From a virus, in the IMG/VR virus record IMGVR_UViG_3300025087_001783, positions 1-57,089 of that record: 57,089 nt of DNA, one strand, 5' to 3'. This document shows positions 1 to 10,919 of this stretch, piece by piece. The notes under the pieces are model-generated. The model searched no databases and was not told where the DNA came from. It was given only the letters and a program-made list of their open reading frames with translations. Both the position numbers and the translations under genes were made by a program. Each line of letters begins with the position of its first letter. Positions within the stretch are counted from its first letter, which is position 1.

Positions 1-3000
1 GGAAATCGTGTTATAACACCTGACGATCCTGTTGTGCCGGATGAAGTTTATCATATGACAACCAATTTGTCAGGTATTAGAAAATCAGGAGAAATTAGTG
101 CACGCGGCAAAGGTGGGTTGGGCGGTGATCAGCACGACCAGATTGTGTCAATGACTGTCAATCGTGACGTTGCTGAGCAGTTGGTTGAAGACACGCGCAT
201 GTTATCAACGTTGGCTCACAAGTATGTCCCAACAGGTTATAAGCTCGATTGGTCTGGTAAGGATGGTCCAGTTGATGTCGGACCAATAAAATGGAAATCT
301 CCTGAACATGGAGAATGGTCAAAAGCACTTGTTGCGGATTTGAATGCTCAAGCTGTCAAAGAAGGTTGGGAATTTACGATAGATCATGAGATGCAGTTGC
401 GGGAATATGGCTTCAATGATTGGCAGCGCATGTATTTTACGCAACGTGAGCATAGAGCTAATATTCGTAATCCATTGTTTTACGGTGCAGAAGGATTGGT
501 AAGCATTAATCCTGGAAATATTGGTTACGTTACAATTCCAAGGAACAATTTGCGTACAGGCGCGTTATTGATGGATTTTGATGTTCCTGGCCCAAATGCC
601 AGCCAGTGGGAACGTGAAAATCTTTTGTATGAAATTAGGTTATATGGTGACGTGCCATTGGTTGGTGCAACGTATTACAAGGAAAAGCACACCACAGCAA
701 TCATTGCATTTGATTGTAATGATGCTGCAATCATGGATTTGTGTAAGCATCTGCCAAGCGATCACGTGGATGACTTCCACATCACCCTGGCGTTTATTGG
801 TGATGTTGCTAATATTGATGTTGAAGCACTGAAGAACAAGTTGGAAGCATTTGCTGAACAGCAAGCACCTGTAGACGGCAAATTCAACGGATATGCCTTG
901 TTTGAAGACACAGGGGATGGCATGCCATTGGTGCTGTTGTATGACAGTCCGCAGTTGCCATTTCTCAGGCAGGCCTTGCGTGAGCAGTTCGGTGATTTGA
1001 TACCGGAGCAGGATCACGGATTTACTCCGCACTGCACGTTGTCATATGTTCAGCAACCGTACGAGCTGGATTTACAAGCATTTGACAAAATGTTTGACAA
1101 GATATCCTTGTGGGTTGGCGAGGAGCATTTTGACTATCCGTTGACAGGTAATGTTGTTGAGAAGGGTGGACCAGGTTCTGGCAATAAAGGTCATGCTGGC
1201 AGACCTGGGAAAGTAGGTGGCTCATTGCCATCAGGTGCTGTGACAGTTGGCTATCATAGGACATCATTAAACGCTGCTGATGCAATTCGTGCAAATGGTT
1301 TTTCTTTGGATTATTTTGGCAAAGGTGGTGGTTTTGGTGTTGTTGAAGAACCTGCAGGCATTTTTATTTCTCCAGAAGGCACACAAGGTGATTTTGAGCG
1401 GGAAGTGAATGAACGCGGCTTGGGATTTTCTGACGTCATAAAGGTTGCTGTACAAGACAATAAAGTTTGGCGTCCTGATAAGAAGCAGATGCGTGATGAG
1501 TTTGAAAAAGTCAGACATGCGTATTTGAAGACTAAATTTAATATCAGTGACGAGATTACGTCTTTATTGGAGCGTGGTGCATGGCGTGATATGAAGCGTT
1601 TGGTTGGCGAAGAAGAGTATGCAAATAAGTACAAGAAAATTTTTATGGATTATATTGATACATTGATGGAAGTTGATATCAAGAAAGCTTTTTCTAGTCA
1701 TATAATGCGCATGGGGTACACAGCAGTTGAATGGGAAGAGCCATTGTATCATGTCAGGCAAATGGTTGTACTTGATCCTAGTGCAATTACGATAATTAAG
1801 GATCATGTTGAGAAGGGTGGCGCTGGATCAGGGAATTACGGGCACAGCGGCAGGCCAGGGAAAGTGGGGGGATCAGCAAGTTCTAGTGCATATGATATAA
1901 GTGCTGAAGAGATTGGTATCGTGTATCATGGTGGGAAGTCAAAAGTTCGTGAAGTTGATCCTGAGCTTGTAAATACACGTGATTATGGATATTATGGCGA
2001 AGGATTTTATGTAACAACTGGCAGGGACTATGCAAAGACTTATGGCAGAACGATTTCTGAGTTTAGATTTGCTGACGATACGAAAATTTTACGTTCGGAA
2101 TTGCATGCCAAGAACGCGCATGCTGATCTTGTACGAGACGTTCTTGCCAGGGAATACGAAGTTGCATACCCAAGAATAAAAGGTAATCCAACAAAAGAAG
2201 CCAATTTTGCTGCATATCTTGAAGATGTAAAAGAAAGTCCTGTAGAATGGGCGCGTGTAGTGTATGCGTTTGGTAAGGCAAAAGGTTATGATGTAATCAT
2301 GCATTCAGGTGGGGAAATTGTTGTATTGAATTATGACAAGCTGCAATTTTTGAAAGAGTATGTTGTTGAAAAGCAGCTGCCAATTGACGATGCGAGCAAA
2401 GCTGTGTTATTGGAAATCCGTAAGAACATGTTCAACGACTTGGCAGATAACCTTGCTGATAGAGTATTTACAGGGGATATGACGGTTGGAGCATGGGAAG
2501 AGGCAATGCGTAAGGCAGTCAGGGAGCTGCACGCATCAGCAGCAGCGATTGCCAAAGGTGGTTGGGATCAGATGACGCCACAGGATTGGGGTCGTTTGGG
2601 ACCACAAATGAAGGAGCAGTATCGTTATTTGCATGGTTTTGCTGAGAAAATTGCTGAAAACAGGGACACAATTAGTATTGAGGCAATCAAGGCGCGTGCG
2701 CATATGTACGGTGAAGCAGCCGGCAACACAGCGGCAATCATTGAGGCAGGGGAGTTTGCTGGTGGAACGGAGCGACAGCCTGGCAGGTTCAAAGGATTAC
2801 CATTCATGCCGAAAGACGGCAGCACGGAATGTTTTTTCTGGGCTGACAAGGTTCGAGTATATACGCGCGAGAGAGGGTATGTGCGATTGGCGTCTATATT
2901 AGTTGGTGAGCATGTGTTGACACATAAAGGTCGTTTCAAAGAAGTGTTGACTAATGATTGTAAAGCTGTTAAGGATGTAAATTCTGTTGAAATAGAAGTC

Positions 3001-3756
3001 ATGATAGGCACTAAGTTGCACAAGTTGTGCACTACGCCAGATCATAGATTCTTAGGTGCTGATGGTAAATGGATATACGCGGCAAATTTGAAAGTGGGCG
3101 GCAATCTTGCTAGACTTGGTATGCAGTGTAAGAATGATGCGTGTGATGATGTGACACATCTTCCAAAAGATGGGAAAATGCACTATTGTTCAATGAGTTG
3201 TTCATGTATTGGTGAACGTAAGTATGAAAAAGCGCACGAAAAGGCCAGAGAAATTGAGGTTGATGGTGGTTATTGGCATGGTTCTCCAGAGCGTCAACGT
3301 AGTGATGAAATTCGTGATAATGCCATAATTGAGCAAAAAGATTATGACATATATAGGTTTGATGCATGGGATGTTGTAAAGGATAAGGATTTTATTAAAG
3401 ATCAACTTGTTAGAGCTTTTGCTAATCATGATGGCAAATATATTGCGGTTGGTGATGCAGAGATTATTAGCATAAAAAGAGTTGTAAGATCAGGCACAGT
3501 TAGATGCTTGACAGTAGAAGATGACGAATCTTTTGCAGTAACTGATGGCATAATCAGCCATAATTGCCTGATGTACTGCAAGTGTTACTGGGAACTTGCT
3601 GAAATTAGCAGAAGCAAAACCGCAAAAGTCATCCAAGCTGTGTGGAAACTGTCTCCTGCTGAGCACTGTCAAACCTGTTTGGATCGCAGAAACTATACGG
3701 TGGCGTTGACGGTGCCCTTGGATACAATTGTGCCAGCAACGATAGGTGGATATTGA
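1..3756 (+). CDS. Minor head (Mu gpF-like) protein with ADP-ribosyltransferase-like, 2H phosphoesterase and intein modules; 5' partial
   Basis: The frame is open from base 1, so the true start lies upstream. GTG at 34 is only the first in-window start; residues below count from it. In order: an ART-like segment (about 5-190, beginning VYHMTT); a 2H phosphoesterase domain with HITL (H249) and HCTL (H333); a Gly-rich tag; a second ART-like segment (about 405-590, GYHRTS, GIFISPE); a second tag; a third ART-like segment (about 625-780, VYHGGK, YGEGFYVTT, similar to DUF3990); then a gpF-like head-morphogenesis domain (about 790-932) interrupted by an intein and resuming with CLMYCKCYWEL and AEHCQTCL. 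gpF-like proteins sit in the capsid near the portal, so the enzyme domains may travel inside the virion and be delivered with DNA, as T4 Alt is. The head domain and intein are clear. ART assignments rest on short motifs and fold pattern only. Confidence 0.8.
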   Translation, partial: GNRVITPDDPVVPDEVYHMTTNLSGIRKSGEISARGKGGLGGDQHDQIVSMTVNRDVAEQLVEDTRMLSTLAHKYVPTGYKLDWSGKDGPVDVGPIKWKSPEHGEWSKALVADLNAQAVKEGWEFTIDHEMQLREYGFNDWQRMYFTQREHRANIRNPLFYGAEGLVSINPGNIGYVTIPRNNLRTGALLMDFDVPGPNASQWERENLLYEIRLYGDVPLVGATYYKEKHTTAIIAFDCNDAAIMDLCKHLPSDHVDDFHITLAFIGDVANIDVEALKNKLEAFAEQQAPVDGKFNGYALFEDTGDGMPLVLLYDSPQLPFLRQALREQFGDLIPEQDHGFTPHCTLSYVQQPYELDLQAFDKMFDKISLWVGEEHFDYPLTGNVVEKGGPGSGNKGHAGRPGKVGGSLPSGAVTVGYHRTSLNAADAIRANGFSLDYFGKGGGFGVVEEPAGIFISPEGTQGDFEREVNERGLGFSDVIKVAVQDNKVWRPDKKQMRDEFEKVRHAYLKTKFNISDEITSLLERGAWRDMKRLVGEEEYANKYKKIFMDYIDTLMEVDIKKAFSSHIMRMGYTAVEWEEPLYHVRQMVVLDPSAITIIKDHVEKGGAGSGNYGHSGRPGKVGGSASSSAYDISAEEIGIVYHGGKSKVREVDPELVNTRDYGYYGEGFYVTTGRDYAKTYGRTISEFRFADDTKILRSELHAKNAHADLVRDVLAREYEVAYPRIKGNPTKEANFAAYLEDVKESPVEWARVVYAFGKAKGYDVIMHSGGEIVVLNYDKLQFLKEYVVEKQLPIDDASKAVLLEIRKNMFNDLADNLADRVFTGDMTVGAWEEAMRKAVRELHASAAAIAKGGWDQMTPQDWGRLGPQMKEQYRYLHGFAEKIAENRDTISIEAIKARAHMYGEAAGNTAAIIEAGEFAGGTERQPGRFKGLPFMPKDGSTECFFWADKVRVYTRERGYVRLASILVGEHVLTHKGRFKEVLTNDCKAVKDVNSVEIEVMIGTKLHKLCTTPDHRFLGADGKWIYAANLKVGGNLARLGMQCKNDACDDVTHLPKDGKMHYCSMSCSCIGERKYEKAHEKAREIEVDGGYWHGSPERQRSDEIRDNAIIEQKDYDIYRFDAWDVVKDKDFIKDQLVRAFANHDGKYIAVGDAEIISIKRVVRSGTVRCLTVEDDESFAVTDGIISHNCLMYCKCYWELAEISRSKTAKVIQAVWKLSPAEHCQTCLDRRNYTVALTVPLDTIVPATIGGY
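1162..1224 (+). repeat. Gly-rich tag, copy 1 (minor head protein)
   Basis: This 21-codon motif follows the pattern KGGxGSGNxGHxGRPGKxGGS. It separates the 2H domain from the second ART-like domain. The same motif recurs at 1813, 20844 and 21689 with identical length, so it is a reused protein module and not random Gly-rich sequence. Confidence 0.9.
1813..1875 (+). repeat. Gly-rich tag, copy 2 (minor head protein)
   Basis: This is the second copy of the 21-residue KGGxGSGNxGHxGRPGKxGGS motif, preceded by VEK as in copy 1. It sits between the second and third ART-like domains. Its position at a domain boundary suggests a linker, targeting or processing element. Confidence 0.9.
2830..3564 (+). 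mobile_element. Intein (245 aa) with an embedded EDxHD/Vsr-like homing endonuclease candidate
   Basis: The intein starts at Cys (codon 2830) after DGSTE and ends with SHN (Asn codon 3562) before Cys+1 at 3565. The visible protein-splicing blocks are the N-terminal block (VYTRERGYVRLASILVGEHV), block B TPDHRF, block F LTVEDDESFAV and block G ISHN|C. Removing it rejoins the host protein as DGSTE-CLMYCKCYW. Between the splicing halves is a segment with EVDGGYWHG (D1077, H1082 in GTG numbering) followed by SDEIRDNAI and YDIYRF. That order resembles Vsr/EDxHD-type homing nucleases and not LAGLIDADG. A cysteine pair set lies before it (CKNDAC, CSMSCSC). The splicing assignment is firm; the nuclease type is inferred. 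Confidence 0.9.
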
Positions 3757-3777
3757 GATTTTGCATTTAATTTTTAT

Positions 3778-3812
3778 AACTGGATGCCATTATGGCATCC
3801 AGTTTTGTTTTA
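3778..3812 (+). terminator. Rho-independent terminator after the minor head gene
   Basis: A perfect 12-bp stem (3778-3789 with 3793-3804) with a 3-nt loop is followed by a T-rich run (ttttgtttt). It lies 22 bases after the stop of the minor head gene and immediately before the late promoter, so it separates two transcription units. Confidence 0.9.
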
Positions 3813-3815
3813 ATC

Positions 3816-3834
3816 AAAGTATATATATTATATT
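3816..3834 (+). promoter_or_regulatory. Candidate late promoter, copy 1
   Basis: AAAGTATATATATTATATT is followed directly by CGGAGG and the protease/scaffold start. The same string recurs at 45855-45874 in front of the tail operon. Two near-identical AT-rich boxes before the two late structural operons, with no other role visible, fit a promoter read by the phage sigma factor encoded at 45137. The start site is not known. Confidence 0.65.
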
Positions 3835-3846
3835 CGGAGGATTTGT

Positions 3847-5220
3847 ATGCCTTGGCATAAGCAAACGCGCGGTGATGAGATTTGTGTTACAGATAAGAGT
3901 GGCAAGCAGTTGCATTGCTATCCTAACACACCTGCAGGTGAGAAGCGCGCTGATAAGTACATTGCCGCGTTGTATGCCAATGCTGGTGAGGAAGTCAAAG
4001 AGGTTGGCGAGGGCGTCTTTATTGAAAAAGAAAAGGATGGTCGTTACAGGATCATAGCAGTATCAACAGCACAGCTGAAGGACAGGGATGGAGAAACCTT
4101 TGACGTTGGTGCCATGGACTACGATATTGCTACTGCTGAAACGACTGGTGAGTATCCTGAATTTCGTGTTTTTCATCGCAAAAATCTAGGTATCGGTAAA
4201 GTTGAGAAGATGCGCCGCGTTGGCATTTTTGCGGTTGATGAGGGGCACAGCTACACTGACCCATTTTCATTACAGGTTTGTGAGAAGATGCTCTCCAACA
4301 ATGATGGCAAGTGGAGAGTATCGCGAGGATTTTATGCGCTGGAAGTCAGTGGCGGCTGTCCGCATTGTAATGAAAATTTGCTTGTAGAAAAGCAAAATAT
4401 GGTTGTAGGTTTTCTGTGCCCAACTTGCAAGACGTACCACCCACAGTACAAGGGAGTGCTCAAAGACGTGCACTTTCGTAAGACCAGAACGTTTGATGTG
4501 TCGGTGACAGATGTTCCCTGCGTCCCATACACAGGCGTTACTGCAATGAAGGATTTACCAACAACTGATCTGGAGGATGACATGGCATTAACTAAGAAGG
4601 ATTTGGAGAAAAAGCTGCGGGACGCAGGTGTATCCAAGGAAGCTATTGATGAGCGTCTTGGAAGCCTGACCGACGCGCAGCTGAAGGAGTTTAGCGACAT
4701 CCCATTTGCGCAGGTGCTCAAAGAGCTGGATGTGGAAACTCCCGAGAGCGACGAGCCGGAGGCAGTCGATCTTGACGAGATGCTGAAGGAAATTGCAGCT
4801 ATTGTTCGCAAAGAGGTTGAAGAGGCAGTTGAGGAAAAGCTGCGCACCGTGCTGGATGGCCTGGAGCTGAACGTTCCTGACATCGAGATCCCGGAGATGA
4901 AAGAGCTTGCCAAGATTGTAGAACTGGCTGCGGAAATCACAGAGCTTAAGGAAGCTGTCGAGGCATTGGCTCGTACTGATCAGGAGCGCCTGAAGGAGCT
5001 TATGTCTGACATGCCTCGAAATGGAAAACTGCGCGTGGCACGCTTCAAGGCCAAGAAACCTCCCATGGAGGACGAAGAGGAAGACGAAGAAGATGAAGAA
5101 AGCGAAGAAGAAATGCCCATGGCCCTGCGCAAAAAGCAGCATGATGCTGGAATGCGCATTATCGGCGCAGATGGCTTCAGTGCAGCCAGCATGACCGAAT
5201 TTATCTCGGGAGGTAAGTAA
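3847..5220 (+). CDS. Prohead protease with C-terminal scaffold (fusion/nested)
   Basis: A 457-aa protein just upstream of the capsid gene. The N-terminal part resembles HK97-type prohead serine proteases: FRVFHRKNLGIGKVE with candidate catalytic His110, WRVSRGF with candidate Ser159, and FDVSVTDVPCVP near the end of the fold. An inserted zinc-ribbon-like segment (CPHC ... CPTC, about 176-200) is unusual. The C-terminal half (about 246 on) is charged, helical and acidic, with a run of Glu/Asp near 405-425, as expected of scaffold. ATG 3847 is preceded by CGGAGG at the right distance. The protease would mature the capsid and probably degrade the scaffold. Catalytic residues are inferred from motif pattern. 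Confidence 0.75.
   Translation: MPWHKQTRGDEICVTDKSGKQLHCYPNTPAGEKRADKYIAALYANAGEEVKEVGEGVFIEKEKDGRYRIIAVSTAQLKDRDGETFDVGAMDYDIATAETTGEYPEFRVFHRKNLGIGKVEKMRRVGIFAVDEGHSYTDPFSLQVCEKMLSNNDGKWRVSRGFYALEVSGGCPHCNENLLVEKQNMVVGFLCPTCKTYHPQYKGVLKDVHFRKTRTFDVSVTDVPCVPYTGVTAMKDLPTTDLEDDMALTKKDLEKKLRDAGVSKEAIDERLGSLTDAQLKEFSDIPFAQVLKELDVETPESDEPEAVDLDEMLKEIAAIVRKEVEEAVEEKLRTVLDGLELNVPDIEIPEMKELAKIVELAAEITELKEAVEALARTDQERLKELMSDMPRNGKLRVARFKAKKPPMEDEEEDEEDEESEEEMPMALRKKQHDAGMRIIGADGFSAASMTEFISGGK
4582..5220 (+). CDS. Nested capsid scaffold protein (internal in-frame start)
   Basis: An in-frame ATG at 4582 (MALTKKDLEKKL) has a strong Shine-Dalgarno GGAGG at 4572-4576, five bases upstream, inside the protease gene. 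Translation from here gives a 212-aa product with only the helical, acidic scaffold region. This is the arrangement of lambda C/Nu3, where the scaffold is made in excess from an internal start. The internal RBS and domain boundary are seen directly; separate expression is inferred. Confidence 0.7.
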   Translation: MALTKKDLEKKLRDAGVSKEAIDERLGSLTDAQLKEFSDIPFAQVLKELDVETPESDEPEAVDLDEMLKEIAAIVRKEVEEAVEEKLRTVLDGLELNVPDIEIPEMKELAKIVELAAEITELKEAVEALARTDQERLKELMSDMPRNGKLRVARFKAKKPPMEDEEEDEEDEESEEEMPMALRKKQHDAGMRIIGADGFSAASMTEFISGGK

Positions 5221-5222
5221 CA

Positions 5223-6719
5223 ATGGCTAAAATCCATCGCACTAACAAAAGTCCGTTGATGGGTATTTTCGACGGCATCCGCAGCGACCCTGATGAGCTG
5301 GCACGGTTTGGCGCTGCAATTGGCCTCGGTATTGCGCAGGCGCAGAATGTTGAGCGTGGGCGCATGCTGCCGATGTTCAAAGAGTCTCAGGGTGATATGG
5401 TCCCCAAGACCTATAGCATCTATGGTCGTTACAGCATCTTCGATCCGTGTAGCCCTGGGGACGTGTTTGGGTTGCAGGTGCAGACGGTTGGCCTGATGCC
5501 TTGGCTTGGATGGCGTCCGAATCGGTTCTACCGTCGGCGCGTGGATTTCATTCCTTGGTATGGTCCTGAGGGCACTGTGGCATGTAACAGCACTACTGGT
5601 GCTGGCAATCCATGCGATGACCCCAAGGGATGGGAGTATGGAGTTTGTGGTTATGACCTGGTGCATACCAGCTGGTACCATCGTGCTGGTGATCCCCTCA
5701 ATCCGCACACTATCACTCAGGATCGCTGCGAGACCACGCCGCGCTATCGCCTGAATGGTATGATGATCGCAGATGATGTTGAGTGGCAGATGAATGGTAT
5801 CATGAACGTTCTGCAGCAGGACCTGCGCCGCGACATGATCCACGGCAATCACGACAATGCCTATCAGATGGACGGCCTGGAAAACCTGGTGGTGACTGGG
5901 TACACTAATGATAATGGCACTACATGCCCGCAGATTGACAGCGCTGTTATTGATTGGGCACATGACGATCTGGATGGCGACGTCAACGGGTATGGCAATT
6001 TCTTCAACTACCTGGATGAGCTGGTCACTGAGATCGAGTATCGCGCCAGCGCCATCGGCACCATTGCCGAAACGGACATGGTGTTGCTGACCAGTCGGTT
6101 CATGGCAACCTGTCTGCTGGATGCTTATGCTTGCTACACCACTTGCGGTGTGACGTCTGACAATGACGTTACTGACCAGGCTCTCCGAGGTCAGCAGCGC
6201 GCGGCACGCATGGCGCTGAATGCTGGACCGCTGTATGACGGTGCTTCTGCAGTCGGATATCTGCCGCTGAAGAGCGGTCGGCGCGTCCCGATCATCGTTG
6301 ACGATGCCCTGGATATTGACAAATTCAATACCACATACTGCACTGACATCTACCTGCTGGTCCGCAGGATTGGCAGCATCGACGTGCTGTATGGCGAGTA
6401 TTTGGATCTGCGTGTGTACGAGAGCCGTGTGCGCGCCAAGTTCCCGGACTTCACCGTTCGGGCTGACGCTGCTGGGCGGTTTGTTACCAAAGGCAAAGAG
6501 GACAACTGGTGCTTGCAGCTTCAGATGGGCACCAGCCCTGAAATCTACATTGCTGCTCCTTGGGCACAGGCTCGATTCCAGGATGTCTGCTGCGCACGCC
6601 AGCGCCAGCCTCTGACTGGTGATCCGTTCCTGCCTAACAAGTACTATATGCCTGGTGGCAAGCCGGTACACTCTGCGTGGTTTGACGTTCCTGAAGGCAA
6701 CGATCAGACTGGTCTGTAG
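5223..6719 (+). CDS. Major capsid protein (by position)
   Basis: A 498-aa protein starting 3 bases after the scaffold stop, with an SD (GGGAGG) inside the end of the scaffold gene. It is followed by a strong terminator, as expected of an abundant product. I do not recognise a specific fold motif; the call rests on order (protease-scaffold-capsid), size and the terminator. It is unusually rich in cysteine (about fourteen, e.g. DPCS, NPCDD, TCPQ, YACYTTCG, DVCCAR), which is rare for HK97-fold capsids and could mean disulfide or metal stabilisation. An alternative is a highly expressed decoration protein, but no other capsid candidate is nearby. Confidence 0.72.
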   Translation: MAKIHRTNKSPLMGIFDGIRSDPDELARFGAAIGLGIAQAQNVERGRMLPMFKESQGDMVPKTYSIYGRYSIFDPCSPGDVFGLQVQTVGLMPWLGWRPNRFYRRRVDFIPWYGPEGTVACNSTTGAGNPCDDPKGWEYGVCGYDLVHTSWYHRAGDPLNPHTITQDRCETTPRYRLNGMMIADDVEWQMNGIMNVLQQDLRRDMIHGNHDNAYQMDGLENLVVTGYTNDNGTTCPQIDSAVIDWAHDDLDGDVNGYGNFFNYLDELVTEIEYRASAIGTIAETDMVLLTSRFMATCLLDAYACYTTCGVTSDNDVTDQALRGQQRAARMALNAGPLYDGASAVGYLPLKSGRRVPIIVDDALDIDKFNTTYCTDIYLLVRRIGSIDVLYGEYLDLRVYESRVRAKFPDFTVRADAAGRFVTKGKEDNWCLQLQMGTSPEIYIAAPWAQARFQDVCCARQRQPLTGDPFLPNKYYMPGGKPVHSAWFDVPEGNDQTGL

Positions 6720-6764
6720 TATCGGGTTGATGAGGGTTGTCTCATCTTCCACCCTCCTTTCCTT

Positions 6765-8891: not shown

Positions 8892-9520
8892 TAACAATCC
8901 AGCGTATTGAAGAACTTGCACAGCAGGCGTTGGAACTACCTGTGGGTTGCGGCAATCAGCATCTTGCCTGTTTGCAAGAGAGCTGGGCACCATACTTGCG
9001 ATTTATGTACTTGTGCATCAAAACGTTTGATGTCAAGTTTGCATTAGAGCTGGGAGTAAACAAAGGCACATGCACTGGGCATATGGCGTATGGAAGTTCG
9101 CTGTGCTCAATATTTGGGATTGACATTGAACCTAACATGGACGCGTTGTACATGCAAAAGGAGTTCCCAAATATTAAGGCATTGTACAGAGGTTATACTA
9201 CAGATCCAATTGCTGTGCATATGATAGAGAACGATGTTAGGGAATTTGGTGAGATAGGCTTGATATTCCTGGATTCTACTCATGATGGCGACACGCCGCG
9301 TCAGGAGTTTGAAGCATACAAGCACCTGTTTGCTGACGAGTGTATTGTCGTAGTGGATGACTTGCTTGGGCCACGGCATCTAATGGAAAAGATGCAGGAG
9401 TTCTGGCAGTGGTTACCAGGGGAAAAGGTAGAACTGCATTACCTGCACCCTGTTCCCGATACGCACATCGGCATTATAGATCAGCCAGGGTTTGGTGTAA
9501 GTATTGTGAGGAAGGCATGA
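8888..9520 (+). CDS. Class I SAM-dependent methyltransferase (O-methyltransferase-like), paralog 1
   Basis: A 210-aa protein with SAM-binding motif I ALELGVNKGTCTGHMA (about 55-70), an acidic motif II end (FGIDIEPN), the IFLDSTHDGD motif and VVVDDL. This order is typical of the Methyltransf_24/cephalosporin-hydroxylase-like group that modifies sugars. Four relatives occur at 14077-16472. In this cassette it likely methylates a sugar residue. ATGA overlaps on both sides. Confidence 0.68.
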   Translation: MITIQRIEELAQQALELPVGCGNQHLACLQESWAPYLRFMYLCIKTFDVKFALELGVNKGTCTGHMAYGSSLCSIFGIDIEPNMDALYMQKEFPNIKALYRGYTTDPIAVHMIENDVREFGEIGLIFLDSTHDGDTPRQEFEAYKHLFADECIVVVDDLLGPRHLMEKMQEFWQWLPGEKVELHYLHPVPDTHIGIIDQPGFGVSIVRKA

Positions 9521-10188
9521 TCATATGTGGAATATATATGATAGAAAATCTTGTAAACCACAAAGTGTACATAGGATCATCTATAGATATTGAGAAACGC
9601 ATTTTGCACCATTCTACGGGAGTGGATGGTAAATATACTAGTGCACATTTGCGGAATGCTATTATTAAATATGGATTCGACAATTTTGTGTACGACGTAT
9701 TGATAACTTGTCATCCAGACATGTTATTATATTATGAGCAGCAATTTTTGGATGCAGTGGTGCCTGATTATAATCTCAGCATGATTGCTGGAAAGGTTGA
9801 AATGACAGAAGTTGTTAGAGGTAAAATTGCTGCTGCTATGCGTGGAAGTCGAATTAATGTAGGTAGGAAGCATACGGCAGAATCCAGGCATATAAACTCG
9901 CTATCAAAAATTGGTTTAAGGCATTCTGAAGAGACCAAACGTAAAATATCTGCAGCACAAAAAGGTAAGGCACATACTGTGTTTACGGACGAAATGCGCA
10001 AGAAAATGTCGATATCTCAGACTGGAAGAAAACATTCTGAGGAAACAAGACATAAAATTTCTAATACATTAAAGGGTAATCCTAAACTTAAGACTTGGAC
10101 AGGAAAGAAACACTCAGAAGAGTCCATTAAGAAAATGTCACAAGCACGTAAAGATTACTGGAAACGCAGAAAGGAACTATCATTATGA
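9517..10188 (+). CDS. GIY-YIG homing endonuclease with NUMOD3 repeats
   Basis: A 223-aa protein from ATG 9517, which overlaps the upstream stop (ATGA). The N-terminal GIY-YIG nuclease has CGIY (4-7), VYIGSS (17-22), Arg28 and a catalytic-type Glu in YYEQQFLD. The C-terminal half consists of several NUMOD3 DNA-binding motifs of the form GxKHSEETxxKIS (e.g. LRHSEETKRKIS, RKHSEETRHKIS, KKHSEESIKKMS). It is a free-standing homing endonuclease placed between a methyltransferase and a glycosyltransferase. It has lower GC than its neighbours, consistent with recent arrival. Confidence 0.92.
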   Translation: MIICGIYMIENLVNHKVYIGSSIDIEKRILHHSTGVDGKYTSAHLRNAIIKYGFDNFVYDVLITCHPDMLLYYEQQFLDAVVPDYNLSMIAGKVEMTEVVRGKIAAAMRGSRINVGRKHTAESRHINSLSKIGLRHSEETKRKISAAQKGKAHTVFTDEMRKKMSISQTGRKHSEETRHKISNTLKGNPKLKTWTGKKHSEESIKKMSQARKDYWKRRKELSL

Positions 10189-10919
10189 TTAGTGGCTTTA
10201 CTTTTTGCCATAACAGTTTAGAGGGAGGCTATCCACTTGTAGAGGCTATTGACGCTGTGCGAGGTTGGGTGGATGAGATTGTGGTTGTTGACATGGCATC
10301 AACGGATGGTACTCGAGAGTTGCTGGAGCGAGAACATGTCAGGATTTTGGATGGGGAGTGGTTTGCTGGTAGTGACTGCCTGAAGAAAGCTCACGCCATG
10401 CACACCCAGTGTAAGGGAGATGTTATTATACACTTTGAGGCTGATGAAGTGTACGAAACAGGTTTGATCAGGCAAATTGTTGACATGCTGCATATCTGCG
10501 AGCAGCAGCAATTGAGCGTATGGCGTATACAGGTTGAACAGAATTTCCAGCGCGTGCGTTGGTATCCGCATATTGTGCATAGAGTATTCCCTAAGGGGAC
10601 TGCTATCAAGGATGGCGAGAGTACAAACCTGCGTGGTAACACTGCAGTCATTCCGCAGTGTTTCGGCATGCTGTGGGACATAACCTACAATTTTCGGGAC
10701 AATATTGTTGACAGGTGCGACAACAATGCGTTTTTGCATGGTGGGGATCCTAATTATCTGTTTGCTCCCAGTCATATATGTCAACCCTATCAGCTTACCA
10801 GGGAACAGCTTGTCGATTATCTTGACGAGCCACAGTGGAGATTTGTCAGTACTCCATTGAATATTCCACCTAATTTACGACCATTAGTAGGAAAGACCAA
10901 ATACGAGGCAAACCTATGA
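10185..10919 (+). CDS. GT-A (family 2-like) glycosyltransferase
   Basis: A 244-aa protein. SGFTFCHNSLEGGYPLVEAI at the start and VVDMASTDGTRE (about 36-47) are the family-2 nucleotide-binding segments. HFEADEVYE (about 85) occupies the DxD position. A later VHRVFPKG segment is common in small phage and cyanobacterial GT2 proteins. It overlaps both neighbours by ATGA. Its closest relative here is the gene at 13232, which shares the IVHR/PVHR region and overall plan. Confidence 0.75.
   Translation: MISGFTFCHNSLEGGYPLVEAIDAVRGWVDEIVVVDMASTDGTRELLEREHVRILDGEWFAGSDCLKKAHAMHTQCKGDVIIHFEADEVYETGLIRQIVDMLHICEQQQLSVWRIQVEQNFQRVRWYPHIVHRVFPKGTAIKDGESTNLRGNTAVIPQCFGMLWDITYNFRDNIVDRCDNNAFLHGGDPNYLFAPSHICQPYQLTREQLVDYLDEPQWRFVSTPLNIPPNLRPLVGKTKYEANL

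Follow-up and report, generated by a model that had tools for sequence, protein, structure and literature searches.

An intein in the gpF protein (Mu gp30) of a Mu-like prophage of Methylococcus capsulatus has been known since 2004 and is degenerate, without a recognisable endonuclease (PMC517821). Gordonia phages Nordenberg, Sitar and Lennon carry an intein in a MuF-like minor capsid protein, which in Nordenberg lies just before a CRC motif. The prototype of the EDxHD homing endonuclease family, I-Bth0305I (PDB 3r3p; review PMC3943268), is intron-encoded ('mobile intron protein'). The locus described here lies in IMG/VR virus record IMGVR_UViG_3300025087_001783, of which positions 1 to 57,089 were analysed; this whole stretch of 57,089 nt is referred to as the window.

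Like the M. capsulatus intein, the window intein sits in a gpF-type head-assembly gene. The former resembles archaeal IF-2 inteins, whereas the latter has a visible EDxHD/Vsr remnant and relatives that are mostly phage-borne (PMC517821). The Nordenberg intein, of 275 residues, is unmatched by the nuclease profile, unlike that of the window. I-Bth0305I is the best profile and fold match of the intact related nucleases; the window copy keeps the second half of such a domain and is without the first helix and strands that carry the E and D. Similar in type are environmental inteins at the CRC site of gpF (L072, L011, L064, and the mini-inteins L122 and L152), which have the splicing domain type, Cys1 and HN/C+1 of the window intein; the full-length ones also have its zinc finger and nuclease type. 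These environmental inteins are mostly intact (about 330-434 residues) and precede the CRC of a Pfam Phage_Mu_F domain, whereas the 245 residues of the window intein lie in a divergent gpF-like domain. In all likelihood, a class 1-type intein with an EDxHD/Vsr-type nuclease entered a gpF-like head gene and subsequently suffered an in-frame deletion of about 150 codons, leaving an element that would still splice and be dead for homing. Coordinates of the features are given in Table 1.

Table 1. Features of the intein-bearing gene in the window.
Feature	Position	Strand	Evidence
Host gene: ORF of several domains (LigT/2'-5' RNA ligase-like module, ART-like module, G-rich linkers, gpF-like domain at the C-terminus)	34..3756	+	
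N-extein part of the gpF-like domain, ending ...PKDGSTE	2362..2829	+	phrog_24776, E 1.9e-17; aligned with intein-free homologues
Intein, 245 residues, Cys1 to Asn245	2830..3564	+	PF14890, TIGR01443; Hint fold by Foldseek; empty sites
N-terminal splicing region: block A Cys1, block B TPDH (3034-3045)	2830..3120	+	Family N profile, E 3.2e-23
Zinc-finger-like CX4C...CX3C (CKNDAC...YCSMSC), from the DNA-binding region of the homing nuclease	3127..3201	+	Alignment with intact inteins
Linker remnant ERKYEKAHEKARE, like KKAHEKTRE-type stretches of intact inteins; putative homology of a short piece	3214..3252	+	
Second half of EDxHD/Vsr-type nuclease (EVDGGYWH, D159, ...NH), profile positions 38-98/98	3241..3435	+	E 1.1e-10
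Putative in-frame deletion join, just before IEVDGG; about 70-200 codons, typically about 150	3250..3258	+	
C-terminal splicing region: block F (Cys at F:4), block G ISHN	3436..3564	+	TIGR01443; family C profile, E 4.7e-13
C-extein from Cys+1: CLMYCKCYWEL...AEHCQTCLDR	3565..3753	+	Alignment

The segment at 2830-3564 is an intein, as the original prediction had it, and its boundaries are exact. Its translation runs from C1 to SHN and is followed by Cys+1 at 3565; the blocks C1, HKGRF, T69-P-D-H72, VRCLTVEDDES and SHN/C can all be read, and the predicted complete splicing blocks and Cys1/SHN-Cys+1 frame are correct. Two intein profiles match over their cutoffs, PF14890 (Intein_splicing) on the window ORF only barely (E 7.7e-9, 36.0 bits against 35.8) and NCBIfam TIGR01443 (intein_Cterm) with 31.2 bits against 15.6. 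In the AF2 model of the intein the Hint parts mostly reach pLDDT 78-93 (72 for the first ten residues), and the best PDB matches of this model in Foldseek are inteins or Hint domains only (gp41-1, Ssp DnaB, Npu DnaB). The intein has a GC content of 39%, against 50% in the N-extein; a second low-GC region of the contig (37-40%) is found at 9350-10390. A close relative of the window intein was not found by exact-peptide searches of viral and genome contigs, tblastn against named phages gave weak Hint matches only, and PDB sequence searches with the intein or the nuclease stub returned nothing useful.

All class 1 splicing residues are present (C1, T69PDH72, H244, N245 and Cys+1), and from C1, TPDH, HN and Cys+1 we infer class 1 protein splicing. 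By sequence the intein appears competent to splice, and it can probably still excise itself. Position F:4 is Cys, as in L085 and L157, while Asn or Asp is usual in the family. A class 3 intein, which would have the WCT signature (W at B:12, Cys at F:4, T at G:5) and lack Cys1, was considered for this residue and dropped, as only the F:4 Cys fits: position B:12 is F, SHN has S, and there is a Cys1.

The host frame is open from 1 to 3756, through the insert, and because it is open from base 1 the true start of the gene may lie off the contig. Two genes downstream, at 5223-6719, is a capsid-like protein, for which a relative's homologue weakly matches a major head protein. Through this protein eight related viral contigs (64-75% identity) were located. 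The C-terminal domain of the host protein is present in seven of the eight (47-62% identity) and the intein in none; a Hint or nuclease match was sought in all eight loci and none was found. The extein flanks align gap-free across the junction in the seven close homologues and in the distant L002 and L003 (33% identity), with KDGSTE^CLMYCKC in the window against KDGSTECLVGCKC at the empty site of L176. The insertion is thereby confirmed to lie exactly before the first Cys of the cluster, as predicted. Judged by this alignment the insert is not part of the conserved head protein, because all nine intein-free homologues, which lack the segment, read through the junction without a gap. The same gapless reading goes against a non-spliced or self-cleaving Hint domain, of the BIL kind, retained in the head protein. 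The F:4 Cys in place of Asn or Asp and a long branch in the intein tree would suit such a domain; with the class 1 splicing residues complete, HN/C+1 included, and many inteins at comparable sites, it is nevertheless very unlikely.

The extein itself was predicted to be a gpF domain, and this is plausible from its Cys motifs and gene neighbourhood. 'gpF-like' is used here as a label read from those two features, because PF04233 (Phage_Mu_F) gave no Pfam match in the window ORF, L175 or L176 and because the Cys pairs are in swapped order. Matches to phrog_24776 (unknown function) are found for the window domain, L002, L004, L020 (weakly), L175 and L176; tblastn of the extein against named phages gave no match. 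Cys157, Cys163, Cys191 and Cys194 are invariant in a nine-sequence alignment. Their pairs run CxxxCxC...HCxxC in the window clade (window 2818-3690; L002, L175-L181) versus HCxxC...CxxxCxC in L004 and L020, which looks like a circular permutation.

The ORF that encodes the head domain has, further upstream at 34-1950, a domain like LigT/2'-5' RNA ligase (E 2.4e-13; weakly similar to Acb1) and a DUF3990/ART-like domain, which may be ejected along with the DNA. Modules of this ORF are set apart by two linkers of almost the same sequence (GGxGSGNxGHxGRPGKVGGS), at 1165-1224 and 1816-1875. Similar linkers occur in L020, L175 and L176, where the surrounding modules differ (ART-like, LigT-like and, in L176, HEYAH zincin-like). 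The pattern resembles an exchange of modules in a virion polyprotein.

Related inteins were collected with a DNA pattern, DGxYWH and HNC at the right distance, which found 72 viral stretches, most of them contiguous inteins. With further searches this gave 91 non-redundant candidates with the same splicing domain type, a count that hinges on the search patterns and is not a frequency. Of the 91, 68 are matched by a nuclease profile that was made from 13 intact domains. The full architecture comprises splicing blocks A and B, a zinc finger, a long basic linker, the nuclease, and blocks F and G, in about 330-434 residues. Within intact nuclease domains E5, D31-F32, E42, D44-G45 and Y47-W48-H49 are invariant. 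In Pfam the intact domains match DUF559 (1.9e-14) and, under the cutoff, Vsr (1.7e-4); their profile finds I-Bth0305I in the PDB (3r3p, E 4.9e-14), followed by a Neisseria endonuclease-like protein (1.9e-11) and Vsr (1.5e-6). An AF2 model of the L020 nuclease domain (pLDDT 89.5) has I-Bth0305I as its best Foldseek match (E 4.8e-7, TM 0.84). In VIA-align I-Bth0305I scores Z 14.4 (96 residues, 2.4 A), with 3hrl tied at 14.3 and Vsr at 13.1. Because of these profile and fold matches of the intact domains to I-Bth0305I and Vsr, the nuclease family of these inteins is of EDxHD/Vsr type.

CRC directly follows the intein in 34 of the 91 candidates. Ten host proteins were scanned for Phage_Mu_F, which was matched in eight and over the Pfam cutoff in six; CRC follows the intein in seven of the eight, and L049 has CRS. 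An intact intein of 430 residues in L020 sits at KDGTSE^CLSACKC, a motif equivalent to that of the window, and L122 and L152 have inteins of 147-148 residues at the CRC site without a nuclease. These data suggest that contiguous inteins equipped with an EDxHD/Vsr nuclease occur widely among phages, with a preference for the invariant Cys of gpF-type head proteins. The original prediction, which regarded Vsr-fold homing nucleases as rare and mostly linked with split inteins and introns, was wrong on this point for environmental phage contigs, where dozens are contiguous and most of these are in virion genes. In the tree a long branch carries the window intein, which is placed, without full support, beside L085 and L157, inteins at another host-gene site; a grouping with L020 was considered and receives no support. 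Related inteins were also seen in bacterial MAGs (L158, L159, L161, L163, L164), before a CRPPxNRxP motif that resembles one of uracil-DNA glycosylase; with 146, 251-252 and 350 residues they are perhaps another decay series. In L093 an ORF at 2752-6753 has an ADP-ribosyltransferase domain and matches Intein_splicing over two stretches, of which one spans residues 16-49; this protein may contain two inteins.

The predicted EVDGGYWHG motif is present in the window intein at residues 143-151, and neither LAGLIDADG nor HNH is matched by Pfam in the insert, again as predicted. When the middle piece is searched in isolation it finds PF18741 (MTES_1575; E 1.8e-4, from profile position 42 of 96) and PF04480/DUF559 (E 0.019, from position 57 of 109), both under the Pfam cutoff. 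The family nuclease profile matches well (E 1.1e-10) and over positions 38-98 of 98 only. Across the 68 inteins that it matches, the match starts at or before position 18 in 65, and later only in the window (38), L049 (44) and L093 (51). From zinc finger to E-x-D-G-x-Y-W-H there are 18 residues in the window, whereas 46 other inteins have 90-221 there (median 167), and alignment with intact inteins displays a clean join, ...KAHEKARE/IEVDGGYWH.... The window copy lacks the E5-bearing first helix, the strands with D31 and almost all of the linker; it keeps D145, H150, D159 and N199-H200. The catalytic set, with the letters of 'EDxHD' assigned from the alignment, is incomplete: E5 and D31 fall within the absent positions 1-37 and the later D/H/D remain. 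Thus of the predicted EDxHD/Vsr-like nuclease the kinship stands, through PF18741, DUF559, the family profile and the matches of intact relatives to I-Bth0305I and Vsr, and a working enzyme does not, as the motif E, the first D and the front half of the fold are missing. Descent of the insert from EDxHD/Vsr nucleases, for the second half only, is supported by these comparisons.

By PD-(D/E)XK-like enzyme logic, a nuclease without these residues should be inactive. The retained EVDGGYWH, H150, D159 and zinc finger could be taken to mean that the short nuclease suffices and the element still homes as an EDxHD-type intein, perhaps by dimerising or by using substitute residues. This is very improbable with the invariant Glu of the first helix, the Asp of the DF strand and their sheet gone, nearly all of the linker lost and the remnant modelled with low confidence (pLDDT 37-67, no strand at IEVDGG, in a short segment). 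A profile search for a split or complementing nuclease piece elsewhere in the window gave no match, and tblastn of the nuclease part against named phages gave nothing credible. The nuclease is incomplete and very probably homing-dead, and the intein can probably no longer spread. Since the sequence is a metagenomic contig from an IMG/VR virus record, the deletion might also be an artefact of assembly, in which case the real element would be full-length, an EDxHD homing intein of the L020 kind; a join in frame and free of stops, together with independent truncations and mini-inteins within the same family, renders this extremely improbable.

The reading favoured here, entry of an armed intein followed by loss of half its nuclease, can be put as a series of steps. 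An intein armed with an EDxHD/Vsr-type nuclease would have entered the gpF-like head gene of the phage lineage, a full-length ancestor presumably homing into the window site. An in-frame loss of about 150 codons would then have taken most of the linker and the first helix and strands of the nuclease. Excision would proceed by an acyl shift at Cys1, transfer to Cys+1, cyclisation of Asn245 and ligation to ...GSTE-CLMY.... The trimmed nuclease would no longer cut empty alleles, because the deletion removed its first helix and strands and most of the linker. The intein would be retained because the phage needs its head protein in frame; the nuclease is dispensable for that and so would decay. The homing-cycle model predicts such nuclease decay in retained inteins, and decay is seen elsewhere in the family in the truncated L049 and L093 and the nuclease-free L122 and L152. 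Several points sit less easily with these steps. EVDGGYWH, D159 and NH are intact in the remnant, which would be surprising were it free to drift; perhaps the deletion is a recent one. The long branch and the missing grouping with L020 leave descent from an intein at the window site a presumption. The Cys in block F departs from the Asn or Asp usual in the family. From this Cys and those at both junctions a different role can be drawn, in which the trimmed insert is kept for use, zinc finger and nuclease stub together forming a switch that responds to redox state or metal and holds back head-protein splicing until assembly; such a role is highly unlikely.

Inteins in gpF are as such already known, and a side result of this comparison is that phage head genes widely harbour contiguous inteins of the EDxHD/Vsr kind; in the open-access literature, which was partially covered, no description of widespread EDxHD/Vsr phage inteins at the gpF Cys was found. 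Taken with its relatives, the window intein offers a snapshot of the homing cycle in phage head genes, from the empty allele (L176 and others) and the intact intein at the equivalent motif (L020) to the later stages of a half-deleted nuclease (the window, L049 and L093) and the mini-intein (L122 and L152).
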